Of a stretch of 59,870 nt of DNA, positions 27,204-59,735 are shown one piece after another. The notes under the pieces were generated by a model, which was given only the letters and a program-made list of their open reading frames with translations, had not been told where the DNA came from and searched no databases. Made by a program: the position numbers and the translations under genes. The stretch is from Lachnospiraceae bacterium (GTDB lineage Bacteria > Bacillota > Clostridia > Lachnospirales > Lachnospiraceae): contig JAJQGP010000067.1 of assembly GCA_021200475.1 (NCBI GenBank), forward strand, positions 19,360 to 79,229, read 5' to 3'. Within the stretch, counting starts at the first letter, position 1; each line of letters opens with the position of its first letter.

Positions 27204-27450
27204 CTGTTTGAAAAAAACATGCCATGCCAATTCACAGTCTTTATTATTATACTATTTATTCTCCCCCCTCCATATCCAAATTACAAGTTCTTGTATCATT
27301 TTTCCGGTTCTTTTCGATAACATGTAAAACCGTATGCAAGCTCTTTTCGCAAATATCGTCACATGGATGTCTTCGAAAAGAATGACTGCCAACCCATGCA
27401 AACCGTTCGTATTAACACAATATAAGCTGAAGTTTTGCTTGCATTTTTCT

Positions 27451-27657
27451 AATGATATGATACAAGGGACAAAAGGTCGGGAATGGAACGCTTGCGTTCC
27501 TATTCATGACCTTGGGGACCGCAAAAACACGAAGAAGTAGCCATTTTGACCATGATTTTGGGTCAAAATGAGCGGATTCTGAGTGTTTTTAGGATTGCGA
27601 GAGTGCGAAGCACGTAGCAATCCGTAGTATCATACCCCTTTTGTCGCTCGAATCATT
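27451..27657. other. Strongly structured intergenic element (candidate noncoding RNA or MITE-like repeat)
   Basis: About 200 bases almost wholly composed of complementary segments. A long hairpin spans 27473-27513 (AAGGTC, GAAT, GGAACGC against their complements). CATTTTGACC pairs with GGTCAAAATG (27542-27570), inside AAAAACAC (27523-27530) with GTGTTTTT (27583-27590). GGATTGC/GCAATCC (27592-27623) holds an inner GTGC/GCAC hairpin. ATGATAC (27457) pairs with GTATCAT (27627), while GACAAAAGG (27468) pairs with CCTTTTGTC (27637) in crossing order, a pseudoknot-like topology. The ends AATGAT and ATCATT also mirror each other. No convincing protein is encoded. The remainder of 27231-27737 shows nothing else. 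Confidence 0.7.
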
Positions 27658-27737
27658 ATATTGCAAAGTTCAAATCTATTATGGACTGCACGCCGACGCA
27701 ATATCGCAAACATTACAATCATTCGTCGGAATCCTTC

Positions 27738-27821
27738 CTAAAAAACAGCAATCGCACAGATAAATACGATCGTAAATAATAGATCAAACGTACCGAATCC
27801 CATGCCTAAACCAATGTACAT
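27738..27821 (-). CDS. 27-residue hydrophobic peptide
   Basis: A very short open frame (begins MYIGLGMGFGTFDLLF) follows a strong GGAGGAAAGGT ribosome-binding site directly before ATG and ends in TAG. The peptide is a single predicted transmembrane helix with no charged residue except one Asp. The GMGFGTFDLLF start resembles the N-terminus of DUF2500-type membrane proteins, so it may be a stand-alone small protein or the stub of a longer, decayed gene; the downstream frame does not continue that family. It lies between the structured element and the Rpn gene. The stretch 27822-28281 shows no other supported gene. Confidence 0.55.
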   Translation of the reverse strand: MYIGLGMGFGTFDLLFTIVFICAIAVF

Positions 27822-28281
27822 ACCTTTCCTCCGTTGTTATCAGACATTTTTAATAATAAATCCTTTCTACTAAACCATTTACATTATCATTATGCTTTGA
27901 GATATATAGAAGCATATGCCTGCTATTCCAGGCAAACTGTTTGTGTAAACATTATAAAACAGGTTTAATAGTTGACAAATATTCTATAGTATGTTATTTA
28001 TATTTATGTTGCTTCATACATATTCATTTTATATTATACTCAGTTTTTACATGTCTAACAAAAGAAAATCCATCTATGACAAAGCATCATTCACTTCTGA
28101 AAAATGCCATAGAGACCAGCAAACAAAAGAGAAAAGAGCATAAAAGAAAGATTTCCGAAAAATCTGCAGAAACAGATAGCTTTTTTGCCCATATTCGTAT
28201 ATAATACAGTACAAGGCAAATGCAAATTTTCAAAATGGCTGCTCTGTTTCTGCGCAAACAACAGAAAGGAGCCGCCGGTAA

Positions 28282-29295
28282 ATGGGAAAGGAAGGAACCA
28301 GTACAGATAACAGAACCAGCAGGAACAATGAGAAAAGCTCAGTCATCACAACAATGGATCATGGTAACAGGGAGGTAAAGTCCTCAGTATTTACCGCTTA
28401 TTTCGGGGAAAGCAAAAACGCTGCGGCACTCTATGACGCGATTGCGGGTACCAGCGGTACCAGACCGGAAGATATCCGATACGAGACTCTGGAGGGTGTT
28501 TTGTTTATGGCACGCAAAAATGATCTTTCATTTTTAGCGAACGAGACGGTATTGGTGATCAGCGAACACCAGTCTACCATCAACGAAAATATGCCGCTTC
28601 GCAACCTCGTCTATTATGGCCGTACCATAGAACGCCTGATAAACCCACGGGACTTATACAGGGAACGACGAATCAAGATCCCGACGCCTGAATTCTATGT
28701 CTTTTATAATGGAGCAAAGGATTACCCTCTCGAAAAAGAAATCAGGCTTTCTGATTCCTTTATGATTTCAAGGGAATCTTACATGATGGATCTCACTACA
28801 AAGGTCATTAACATCAACAAAGGAAAAGGCCATTCGATTCTTGCAAACTGTCAACCCATGAAGGAGTATTCTGATTTTATGGAATATATCCGGCAATTCA
28901 TGAAAACAGAAAATCGTAATCGGGAAAAGGCCATTACCCTTGCCATCCGAAAATGCCGTGAGGAAGGGATCATGACTGAGTTTCTTAACAGACACAGCTC
29001 GGAGGTGGAAAACATGCTTTTTACTCAGTGGAATTGGGATGACGCTCTGGAAGTAGTGAAAGAAGAGGCAATCGAAATAGCAAAAGAGGAGCTCAGAGAC
29101 ACTGTCAAGGCGGAAGTCAAAGAAGAAGTCAAAGAAGAAGTCAAAGAAGAAGTCAGGGCGGAAGTCAAAGAAGAAATAGAGACGGCCAGGAAGGAGACAG
29201 AAAGCGCCAAAAAGGAAGCTGACGATGCCAGAAAAAGGGCAGAAGATGCGCTGGCTGAGTTAAAACGAATTAAGGAGCAGTATGGAATTTCCTGA
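28282..29295 (+). CDS. Rpn-family nuclease / PD-(D/E)XK transposase-like protein
   Basis: 337-residue protein of the Rpn (recombination-promoting nuclease) family. The nuclease-like core holds VLVISEHQSTINENMPLRNL (Glu-x-Gln of the PD-(D/E)XK fold) and FYVFYNGAKDYPLEKEIRLS. After residue ~245 comes a long charged coiled-coil tail with repeated EEVK units and Ala/Lys/Glu helices. GAAAGGAG precedes the start. Family members cut DNA and occur in many variable copies. A strong internal ribosome-binding site and ATG at 29014 are noted separately. A terminator follows directly. Confidence 0.88.
   Translation: MGKEGTSTDNRTSRNNEKSSVITTMDHGNREVKSSVFTAYFGESKNAAALYDAIAGTSGTRPEDIRYETLEGVLFMARKNDLSFLANETVLVISEHQSTINENMPLRNLVYYGRTIERLINPRDLYRERRIKIPTPEFYVFYNGAKDYPLEKEIRLSDSFMISRESYMMDLTTKVININKGKGHSILANCQPMKEYSDFMEYIRQFMKTENRNREKAITLAIRKCREEGIMTEFLNRHSSEVENMLFTQWNWDDALEVVKEEAIEIAKEELRDTVKAEVKEEVKEEVKEEVRAEVKEEIETARKETESAKKEADDARKRAEDALAELKRIKEQYGIS
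29014..29295 (+). CDS. Possible internal small Rpn product (RpnS-like)
   Basis: Within the Rpn gene, GGAGGT (29001-29006) lies 7 bases before an in-frame ATG at residue 245. This would give a separate 93-residue C-terminal protein (begins MLFTQWNWDDALEVVKEE) made only of the helical tail. Intragenic C-terminal products that neutralise the full-length nuclease are known for E. coli Rpn genes; applying this here is inference. Confidence 0.45.
   Translation: MLFTQWNWDDALEVVKEEAIEIAKEELRDTVKAEVKEEVKEEVKEEVRAEVKEEIETARKETESAKKEADDARKRAEDALAELKRIKEQYGIS
29113..29172 (+). repeat. 12-bp tandem repeat inside the Rpn gene
   Basis: Five consecutive 12-base units of GAAGTCAAAGAA, the fourth diverged (GAAGTCAGGGCG), encode Glu-Val-Lys-Glu steps of the coiled coil. 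Copy number may vary by slippage without changing the frame. Confidence 0.85.
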
Positions 29296-51827: not shown

Positions 51828-53791
51828 GTCGTGAAGACCTCCTTCTCACATAATTTTCCGGTATAACCGATCGTAAACATCGGGCTGAACGCATATCCCT
51901 CTTTGATATAACCCGCCTTATCGCGTCCCTCGCAGGTCATGGAAACCTTCGTTTCAATCGGCGGAACGATACAGGTCGCGCAGTCCGCACCTTCCAGGGA
52001 GGCCTCACGGCACTTATACTCATAAGGAATCTCTGTCTTTTCGCCGTCCTTCGTTACGCGCAGCGTCAGACTGGACATATCCTCCGTGTACTCCGTCGTG
52101 CCATAGCAGCCCACCATGTACTCATTAATCGTAATCTCGGCAGCTGCGCAACGCATAGCATTCTCGGAATCGCAGCTGCGGTCTGCCGCCGAACTGCTGT
52201 GAGGGGGCATTTCCTCAGCGGCTGACACATCCGCGCCCTCTTCCTTCGGCGTGATCTCCAGCACCCTGCGGTCAATGCGGATGCTGCCCGTACCTTCTGC
52301 AAAGGTCAGCACCGTCTGCAGCTTCACGGTCAGGTCGGAAAACTCAATGTCTACCGGATCCAGAGTGAGGATGCGGTTCTTCGCGACTTTTGCTGCGCTG
52401 CCGTCTGCCGATGCAGTCTCTGCGGAAGCAGCCAGCGGCTCCTCGGAAAAATGCGCTTTTGTACGGCACAGACACAGATCAACCTCTTCGCCATTGTGGC
52501 AGATTTTCGCGCTGCGAACCGTTCCCTCGCCCGCATAATGAGTAAAGTAACCCGCGCGGTATTTTTCCTGGATCAGGAACGGATAGCTCGCATCCTGAAT
52601 ATGCGGAGTGCCGATGCCAACCGGCCAGTTCAGCTTCGCGACATATGGGCGCAGGTCGACAATCGCGCCGCCCTGATCCATATTGACGCCTGCGCGCAGA
52701 TACGGATCGCAGTACCAGAATACCTGCTTTTTGCTTCCATATAAAATATCTCTCCAGAGCGCGCACTCCGGTTCAGTATATGACTTCTTCTGACGATAGT
52801 AATCCGCGAACTCACTCATTGTCATATCGATCAGCTTGCCTTCTTTTTTCAGCTTGCCATAATATGCGCAGCCATCCTCGTAGGATTTCAGAAGCAGCTC
52901 ATACGGCGCCTCCCAGCGTCCCATCTTATTCATCCAGCCTGGTCCTACAAACATCATATTGTAAGAATAGCCGTCATTGAACTTCGCCTGATAACGGTAC
53001 TGGTCAATCAAATTATATAAATACGGATACTCCCAGGTCTCGGTATCGTAAATCATGCCACGCAGCACGTTCTGCGGATGCGTTCCAAAGTTCGAGCCAT
53101 TGCCATCGTAGCACGCGATCAGGTCACGGCTCAGATGCGGGATTGCCACAATGCCGGAATCCTCTTCTTCATTCGCCGCTGGAGCGTGTGTGTTCTGCTT
53201 CGACGGAATCCACGGCGCCCAGGGGCCGCCGTCCATAAAGGTGTACCAGCTGTTGTTGCAGGTGTGGTAAGCCTTCGGGCCTTCCTCCCAGCAGGTCGCC
53301 ACCGCGCACTTGACAGACGGATATTTTTCTTTGATGTAATTCGTCAACTCCGCGTCCATATAATAAGAGCCGGTCGACTCCGGATAAAAGCCAAAGCAGT
53401 CATAAAACTTCTCAAACACATCCTGAACAATCGCCTTTTTATCTTCCATCGAAAACATCCAGATGCAGAAATCCTTTGTATTATATTTTTCCCGGAATTC
53501 CTTACAAGGCAGGCCGAGCAGCGTCAGTGCGATCTCGTCGCCGTATTTCTCATGATGCTCCTTCGCAAGCGCAATCGCCTCTTCATTGAAAAGGCTGGCA
53601 TAGGTCATCTCAATCGTCGTCTTTAAGCCGTTTTTGTGCGCGCACTCCTGCTGCGTCTTAAAAATATCCAGGCTTTCCGTCAACAAAGCCTTGCGCCCAA
53701 TGTCTTCCGCCTGTCCGTGGCCGGTCACCTTCTCGGCATACTCCGGCACCATCTCAGGACGGTGGATAATGTTTACAACAAATTTGTCCAT
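51800..53791 (-). CDS. Unrecognised 663-residue protein in the glycan locus
   Basis: No family is recognised with confidence. The first ~420 residues look like a (beta/alpha) barrel with acidic and aromatic clusters (GLKTTIEMTYAS, FGFYPESTGSYYMDAE, VATCWEEGPKAYHT, FMDGGPWAPW, IPHLSRDL), as in deacetylase or glycosidase barrels. The remainder is beta-rich and contains an Ala/Ser/Cys-rich insert near residue 540. A DUF3863/DUF3864-like identity is only a weak suggestion. No signal peptide is present. AAAGGG precedes the ATG at 53791. It lies 47 bases behind the amylase gene and overlaps the zinc-ribbon gene, so it probably belongs to the importer operon. Confidence 0.8.
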   Translation of the reverse strand: MDKFVVNIIHRPEMVPEYAEKVTGHGQAEDIGRKALLTESLDIFKTQQECAHKNGLKTTIEMTYASLFNEEAIALAKEHHEKYGDEIALTLLGLPCKEFREKYNTKDFCIWMFSMEDKKAIVQDVFEKFYDCFGFYPESTGSYYMDAELTNYIKEKYPSVKCAVATCWEEGPKAYHTCNNSWYTFMDGGPWAPWIPSKQNTHAPAANEEEDSGIVAIPHLSRDLIACYDGNGSNFGTHPQNVLRGMIYDTETWEYPYLYNLIDQYRYQAKFNDGYSYNMMFVGPGWMNKMGRWEAPYELLLKSYEDGCAYYGKLKKEGKLIDMTMSEFADYYRQKKSYTEPECALWRDILYGSKKQVFWYCDPYLRAGVNMDQGGAIVDLRPYVAKLNWPVGIGTPHIQDASYPFLIQEKYRAGYFTHYAGEGTVRSAKICHNGEEVDLCLCRTKAHFSEEPLAASAETASADGSAAKVAKNRILTLDPVDIEFSDLTVKLQTVLTFAEGTGSIRIDRRVLEITPKEEGADVSAAEEMPPHSSSAADRSCDSENAMRCAAAEITINEYMVGCYGTTEYTEDMSSLTLRVTKDGEKTEIPYEYKCREASLEGADCATCIVPPIETKVSMTCEGRDKAGYIKEGYAFSPMFTIGYTGKLCEKEVFTTWLNLEKAN

Positions 53792-59547: not shown

Positions 59548-59735
59548 AATGATTGTCCTCCTTATAGACATAATAGGTATACGGCAAACCATGCTCTCGA
59601 TCCGCCGTACCACGGACTGCCTGTGGAAACGCCCCCTCGCTCCTCTTGGCGGCAGGTCGCACCGCATTCTGAAAACGCTTCGCGTTGGAGCATCGCTCCG
59701 GAAAGCTTATCTCACTTCCTGCAATCCGCAATTTT

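Follow-up and report, generated by a model that had tools for sequence, protein, structure and literature searches.

The element at positions 27459-27654 of the window (the whole 59,870-nucleotide stretch of Lachnospiraceae DNA that was analysed) is, in the explanation that we consider likely, a non-coding MITE that carries the structured RNA RF01699. We propose that this RNA was ancestrally an intercistronic mRNA domain, captured and made mobile by IS1182-like ends. A first-pass annotation, made from the letters of the sequence, had proposed either an undescribed structured RNA or a MITE-like mobile repeat, with pseudoknot-like pairing. The structured RNA and the MITE-like repeat have both been borne out, whereas the RNA proved to belong to a described family and the pseudoknot found no support.

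The window element and its locus

The first-pass annotation had suggested a scan of Rfam as a check, and that scan (cmscan) gave a match to RF01699 "Clostridiales-1" on the plus strand (27458-27632; 120.3 bits, E 6.8e-27). The match covers model positions 1-166 of 166 and far exceeds the family's curated threshold of 48 bits, making the element a member of the family by covariance model. At 196 bp the element has the size of a MITE, it contains no transposase gene, and its 18-bp ends are within 3 substitutions of the terminal inverted repeat (TIR) motif. The coordinates originally proposed, 27451-27657, were nearly right: the element itself begins 8 nt further in and ends 3 nt earlier, and the likely target duplications lie directly outside it. 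Its features are as follows.

27459..27654, plus strand: whole element, 196 bp, TIR to TIR; end pair found by motif, and homology with genome G501 restarts exactly at 27655
27459..27476, plus strand: 5' TIR, GATACAAGGGACAAAAGG, by motif and complementarity
27637..27654, minus strand: 3' TIR, CCTTTTGTCGCTCGAATC, by motif and complementarity
27452..27458, no strand: left presumed 7-bp target duplication, ATGATAT, 6/7 identical to the right copy
27655..27661, no strand: right presumed target duplication, ATTATAT; identical 7 bases in the intact G501 gene
27458..27632, plus strand: RF01699 Clostridiales-1 RNA, cmscan 120.3 bits
27458..27463, plus strand: 5' strand of stem P1, TGATAC, partner GTATCA at 27627-27632; P1 covaries in 105 copies
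27627..27632, plus strand: 3' strand of P1, GTATCA, by complementarity in the sequence
27473..27513, plus strand: P2 hairpin, AAGGTC (27473-27478) with GACCTT (27508-27513); apical GGAACGC/GCGTTCC
27523..27590, plus strand: P3, 27523-27536 with 27577-27590; inner hairpin 27542-27551 with 27561-27570
27592..27623, plus strand: P4, GGATTGC (27592-27598) with GCAATCC (27617-27623)

The multi-stem pairing that had been noticed is real. The complementary pairs are present in the element (TGATAC/GTATCA; GACAAAAGG/CCTTTTGTC; AAAAACACGAAGAA/TTCTGAGTGTTTTT; CATTTTGACC/GGTCAAAATG; GGAACGC/GCGTTCC; GGATTGC/GCAATCC; and, at the outer edges, TAATGAT/ATCATTA), and the folding of window 27400-27700 beats 100 of 100 dinucleotide shuffles on either strand (z -4.76 and -4.88). 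The window copy also retains the near-invariant core of its relatives, with a compensated pair (GAAGAA/TTCTGA). Two of the complementarities cross, and both exist as had been claimed, but they need not form simultaneously: GACAAAAGG/CCTTTTGTC is best read as the TIR of the mobile element and TGATAC/GTATCA as the RNA stem P1. The presence of both in the window speaks for a true RNA pseudoknot as the functional fold. We nevertheless think such a fold extremely improbable, since 109 of 192 copies have no 3' partner and P1 is kept in them all the same, and since transposition accounts for the TIR. An intrinsic terminator was not favoured either; both terminator-like sites in 27231-28281 fall outside the element. 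Retron RNA and group II intron RNA were further candidates that we did not prefer.

The flanks of the window element carry little weight alone, as they are identical at 6 of 7 positions and 13% of swapped flanks match equally well. In the same-genus genome G501, homology restarts exactly at 27655, within the 3'-terminal part of a gene that is intact there and, judged by eye, probably encodes an AraC-type regulator; window 27655-27727, directly adjoining the element, is a 3'-end remnant of this gene. The left flank (27392-27456) is without a counterpart at the G501 site, and extra G501 genes lie between both flanks. Because the left side in G501 is 98% identical but rearranged, this comparison gives the right border only and no clean empty site for the window. 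The window copy thus sits at a deletion or recombination junction, or else it inserted into a gene that was later lost. It lies 228 bp from the called start of an ABC-transporter gene on the minus strand. Its own genome gave no match to the partner transposase described below at E 1e-30, and for this reason the copy, which is of the mobile type, is probably immobile at present.

Elsewhere in the window, two matches to the GA-cis RNA (RF02987) were barely above the cut-off (52136-52218, plus strand; 59621-59703, minus strand). A 337-aa gene at 28282-29295 (plus strand) has no Pfam family at 1e-5 and no NCBIfam family at 0.001, and its product presumably resembles an Rpn-type nuclease; G501 carries, nearby, a second and partial copy of the region upstream of this gene.

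Mobility of TIR-type copies and their probable partner transposase

Many RF01699 copies extend beyond the Rfam model to a second end, and the 18-bp inverted ends have the consensus GATN4GGGTCAAAAGG (in G038, GATACCAGGGTCAAAAGG on one side and, read inward, GATGTAGGGGTCAAAAGG on the opposite side). Identical 7-bp flanks were seen at 44 of 74 TIR pairs of relatives with ends 150-300 bp apart (43 of 73 distinct pairs, as L008 and L075 are the same and were counted twice; some pairs are mispaired neighbouring ends), against 1.9 on average and a maximum of 9 in 2000 trials when flanks were swapped between partners. Five TIR pairs had an 8-bp duplication. The copy at L066:1999-2181 is missing from the orthologous place in the same-genus genome G508, where the flanks join with one 7-bp target. 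G508 likewise lacks a copy at a second site, L066:11077-11259, though that one is not clean. High copy number and an empty site are features of the relatives (G038 and G508, respectively), not of the window copy: we found at least 111 RF01699 matches in G038 and at least 70 in G027 (E 0.001; best 150 candidates scored), and five in the window's own genome, four of them above the cut-off. Target-site duplications and high copy number were the very signs by which the first-pass annotation had expected a mobile element to be recognised. Together with the empty site, the TIRs and the occurrence of these TIRs around a transposase gene, they support a MITE-like repeat for this copy and its TIR-bearing relatives. 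At the level of genome comparison, the duplications and the empty site demonstrate that TIR-type copies are mobile.

The same ends also enclose other or stripped interiors, in elements of 42, 68-69, 162 and 315 bp. The 42-bp element (L123:1501-1542) consists of nearly nothing but the two inverted ends and has a 7-bp duplication. Another small dispersed family is represented by a 98-bp palindromic repeat (L066:3768-3865), which has numerous matches to either strand in G507-G509 and is missing at the orthologous place in G507.

A partner for these ends was found, among the matches listed, by scanning named genomes for TIRs without an adjoining MITE hairpin. Locus L304, from Lachnospiraceae bacterium UBA3814, is 1901 bp long and has both ends and a 535-aa open frame. 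The domains of its protein are DUF772, DDE_Tnp_1 and DDE_Tnp_1_6, the first two of which are shared with the IS1182 family, and the best NCBIfam model listed is IS1182 (NF033551). We name the partner IS1182-like because its score of 142.1 bits is below the curated cut-off of 270. The flanks of L304 show no matching duplication. Relatives of the transposase occur in 11 of 250 family genomes (E 1e-30); L347 is a complete IS of 1848 bp with an exact 8-bp duplication, ATCAATAT, and a 559-aa open frame, and L349 has an internal stop and no duplication. As its ends are shared with autonomous elements (L304 and L347), we infer that the MITE is mobilised in trans by an IS1182-like transposase.

An end with at most two substitutions lies beside 12 of 17 IS1182-like transposase loci, which are not independent (the ends were what led to L304, and L354, L359 and L362 belong to a single place), versus none of 21 other PF01609 loci, drawn from six genomes. 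Within G001-G149, five genomes have the transposase (G038, G051, G053, G110 and G118), and all five fall among the 29 of 150 genomes with at least 11 RF01699 matches; the hypergeometric value of 2e-4 for this overlap belongs to a threshold picked afterwards and assumes that the transposase search used the same 150-genome draw. No transposase was detected at E 1e-30 in 24 of those 29 genomes. A search of 200 genomes for TIR ends followed by G or T, with a match in 17, returned variants of the MITE along with single ends and further small elements, and scans of IMG/VR, which gave 0 and 3 contigs, yielded no partner. A 1.58-kb end pair in G102 and G111 was rejected as a partner, since it proved to be two MITE fragments with a gene between them that looks MATE-type by eye.

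Another Rfam RNA, TwoAYGGAY (RF01731), was also found between these ends at L117:1206-1520, L291:2945-3259 and L312:6070-6382, in elements of 313-315 bp with exact 7-bp duplications; L268 and L270 have the same arrangement and no duplication. Three of these loci (L268, L270 and L291) come from Roseburia hominis An869. G176, which has the transposase, carries one TwoAYGGAY with both ends (L465). RF01731 was matched in 34 of 200 family genomes, frequently by numerous copies, and is mostly not TIR-borne, with both ends at only 1 of the 24 best loci.

Copies without a 3' TIR in intercistronic spaces

We classed 192 copies by searching about 75 nt of downstream sequence for the best inverted match to their first 18 nt. 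They are the better-scoring matches rather than a random draw: G038 gave 52 of its 111, G027 gave 24 of its 70, the class search gave 24, nine of the 39 genomes of genus g200 gave 61, and the other 31 came from the window's own genome together with 28 more of the family. Seventy copies scored 13 or more (TIR-type) and 109 scored 11 or less (without a 3' TIR), and 13 scoring 12 were excluded; with shuffled downstream sequence, a score of 13 was reached by 1 of 192.

With genes called by a simple ORF caller, TIR-type copies have no strand preference, the upstream gene being on the same strand in 27 of 67 and the downstream gene in 34 of 69. Copies without a 3' TIR are mostly oriented with the genes around them, a same-strand gene lying upstream in 81 of 108 and downstream in 89 of 105 (1e-7 and 1e-13 by a one-sided binomial test that ignores relatedness among copies). 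The upstream stop codon lies within -8 to +11 nt of the first base of the RNA in 58 of the 81 copies without a 3' TIR that have a same-strand upstream gene, versus 9 of 27 TIR-type copies. In genus g200, both neighbours were called for 60 copies, with or without a TIR, and 47 of these lie between two genes on their own strand.

The junctions themselves recur. In 22 of 75 copies without a 3' TIR, both flanking proteins are common to different genomes, and these copies fall into 10 groups, the ten junctions that different species have in common. The neighbours confirmed by Pfam are S15 and PNPase, S11 and S4, Rnf subunits, and a glutamine amidotransferase, which we take to be purF, upstream of adenylosuccinate lyase. 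The rpsK-rpsD and purF-purB junctions are examples in which the RNA meets the upstream stop codon, and at purF the gene's final codons together with its stop codon form P1 and are matched on the 3' side. At rpsO-pnp (S15-PNPase) the RNA begins 68-76 nt past the stop codon, and the copies of the two species differ so greatly that independent gain or replacement seems indicated there. One copy has RNA polymerase beta, likewise confirmed by Pfam, downstream, the nearest called upstream gene being that of ribosomal L10, 452 nt away. A riboswitch was not favoured, as copies without a 3' TIR have diverse genes downstream of them.

Compensatory covariation in these copies is strong, and it is here that the proposal of a structured RNA is upheld. 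In a MAFFT alignment of 26 copies, picked for similar length from 82 listed, 95.7% of cells are paired over 29 consensus pairs, and double-sided changes occur in 24 pairs and 147 cells, compared with 76.7%, 13.6 pairs and 38.5 cells in shuffles, and with 25-48% and 13-35 cells when partners were slid. P1 is paired at 96.7% in 105 copies versus 58.6% with swapped arms. P3, located by a sequence pattern that missed 16 of 105 copies, the window copy included, gives a weaker signal (80.9% paired versus 66.9% swapped in the 89 copies matching; 75.3% versus 49% for its variable pair). The core ATGAGNAA ... GGATTNCGAATG, which may form tandem G-A pairs, and the internal mismatched loops are near-invariant, and the stems vary in a compensated way. 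We conclude, from sequence comparison, that copies without a 3' TIR are under selection for both structure and place. Median within-genome identity is 0.607 (13 copies, G571) and 0.577 (7 copies, G595) for these copies, and 0.968 for the 36 TIR-type copies of G038.

These loops also bear on the idea that the fold matters as DNA, with hairpins or cruciforms serving replication or the transposase and template switching keeping the arms complementary. Both strands do fold equally well, and stripped elements, barely more than two ends, also move. However, under template switching the conserved mismatched loops would be lost, and a strand bias in the 109 copies does not fit a DNA fold, which we consider very unlikely.

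Possible origin, related systems and distribution

Because the 5' end of the RNA resembles an IS end and the copies without a 3' TIR vary more widely, we suggest that the MITE arose from an intercistronic RNA. The ancestral form would have been this RNA, and a second end arising downstream would have made it mobile. Such an RNA would act as a domain of the polycistronic mRNA, most probably one for processing, stability or coupling, its basal stem P1 lying where the terminating ribosome would stand. A position in which P1 meets the stop codon and the RNA takes up the spacer fits a domain for mRNA processing or stability, or one that senses translation of the upstream gene; for the intercistronic copies the first role seems to us quite possible and the second unlikely.

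Alternatively, there could be a single MITE lineage, in which decay of the ends has turned old insertions into copies without a 3' TIR, and the strand and stop-codon bias reflects tolerance by operons and not RNA function. The TIR starts (T)GA, so that insertion near the 3' end of a gene would supply the stop codon; 9 of the 27 TIR-type copies counted above abut a stop codon as well; and some G571 copies classed as lacking the TIR retain a TIR-like 5' end (L391, L393 and L399). It is purF's own last codons, however, that make P1 and are matched on the 3' side. The near-invariance of mismatched loops beside compensated stem changes, and the sharing of ten junctions by different species, also speak against decay, and we judge a single lineage improbable. 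An intercistronic origin, our preferred reading, can be widened: IS1182-like transposons of Lachnospiraceae might repeatedly capture operon RNAs (RF01699; RF01731 in Roseburia hominis) and spread MITEs with RNA cargo, the cargo easing insertion into operons and some copies being domesticated as intercistronic regulators with the basal stem fitted to the upstream stop codon. We regard this wider scenario as doubtful. RF01699 also offers a possible example of mutual feeding between a transposon and an RNA structure in mRNA.

The enterobacterial REP, BIME and ERIC sequences are repeated structured elements of transcribed intergenic spaces and are linked to mRNA stability. The RF01699 element is like them repeated, structured and found in transcribed intergenic spaces, and differs from them in sequence, fold, size and mobilising enzyme. 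The nearest kind is that of the bcr1-type repeats. As described in parts of two papers (PMC3446304, PMC6542083), the bcr repeats of Bacillus cereus, bcr1 included, are likened to MITEs and often lie in UTRs or operon spacers, bcr1 averaging 39 copies per strain; these accounts give them another sequence and a TTTAT-linked, recombination-like mobility, and no IS1182-like partner. IS1272, of the IS1182 family, is described as replacing a stem-loop without target duplication (PMC5678879, in part), whereas the partner here duplicates 7-8 bp. For RF01699 itself, a table in Weinberg et al. 2010 (PMC2864571) rates Clostridiales-1, of Clostridiales and the human gut, as probably RNA and not cis-regulatory; we found no mention in the main text of the family as mobile or intercistronic, and the supplement may say more. 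Nor did we find an account of RF01699 as a MITE or intercistronic element in the open-licence literature that we searched.

RF01699 was found in 83 of 150 genomes of the bacterial family, 64 of them above the cut-off; per-genome counts in this draw came from the best 17 candidates scored and are lower bounds in many genomes. All 39 genomes of genus g200 have it, 38 above the cut-off. In a class-wide draw, 9 of 291 genomes had it: the family to which the window belongs accounts for 7, the window's genome among them, a different family of the order accounts for one, and the ninth, from elsewhere, is a weak match below the cut-off. The split into mobile and intercistronic copies explains this scattered, high-copy distribution, and it follows that RF01699 copy numbers mix transposition with function. 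The role of the RNA becomes testable at named junctions (rpsK-rpsD, purF-purB, rnf and rpsO-pnp). In G038, four RF01699 copies stand in tandem at L053:2136-2642 (G038:C4:37247-37842), with a period of about 146 bp, and neighbouring copies share a P1 stem.
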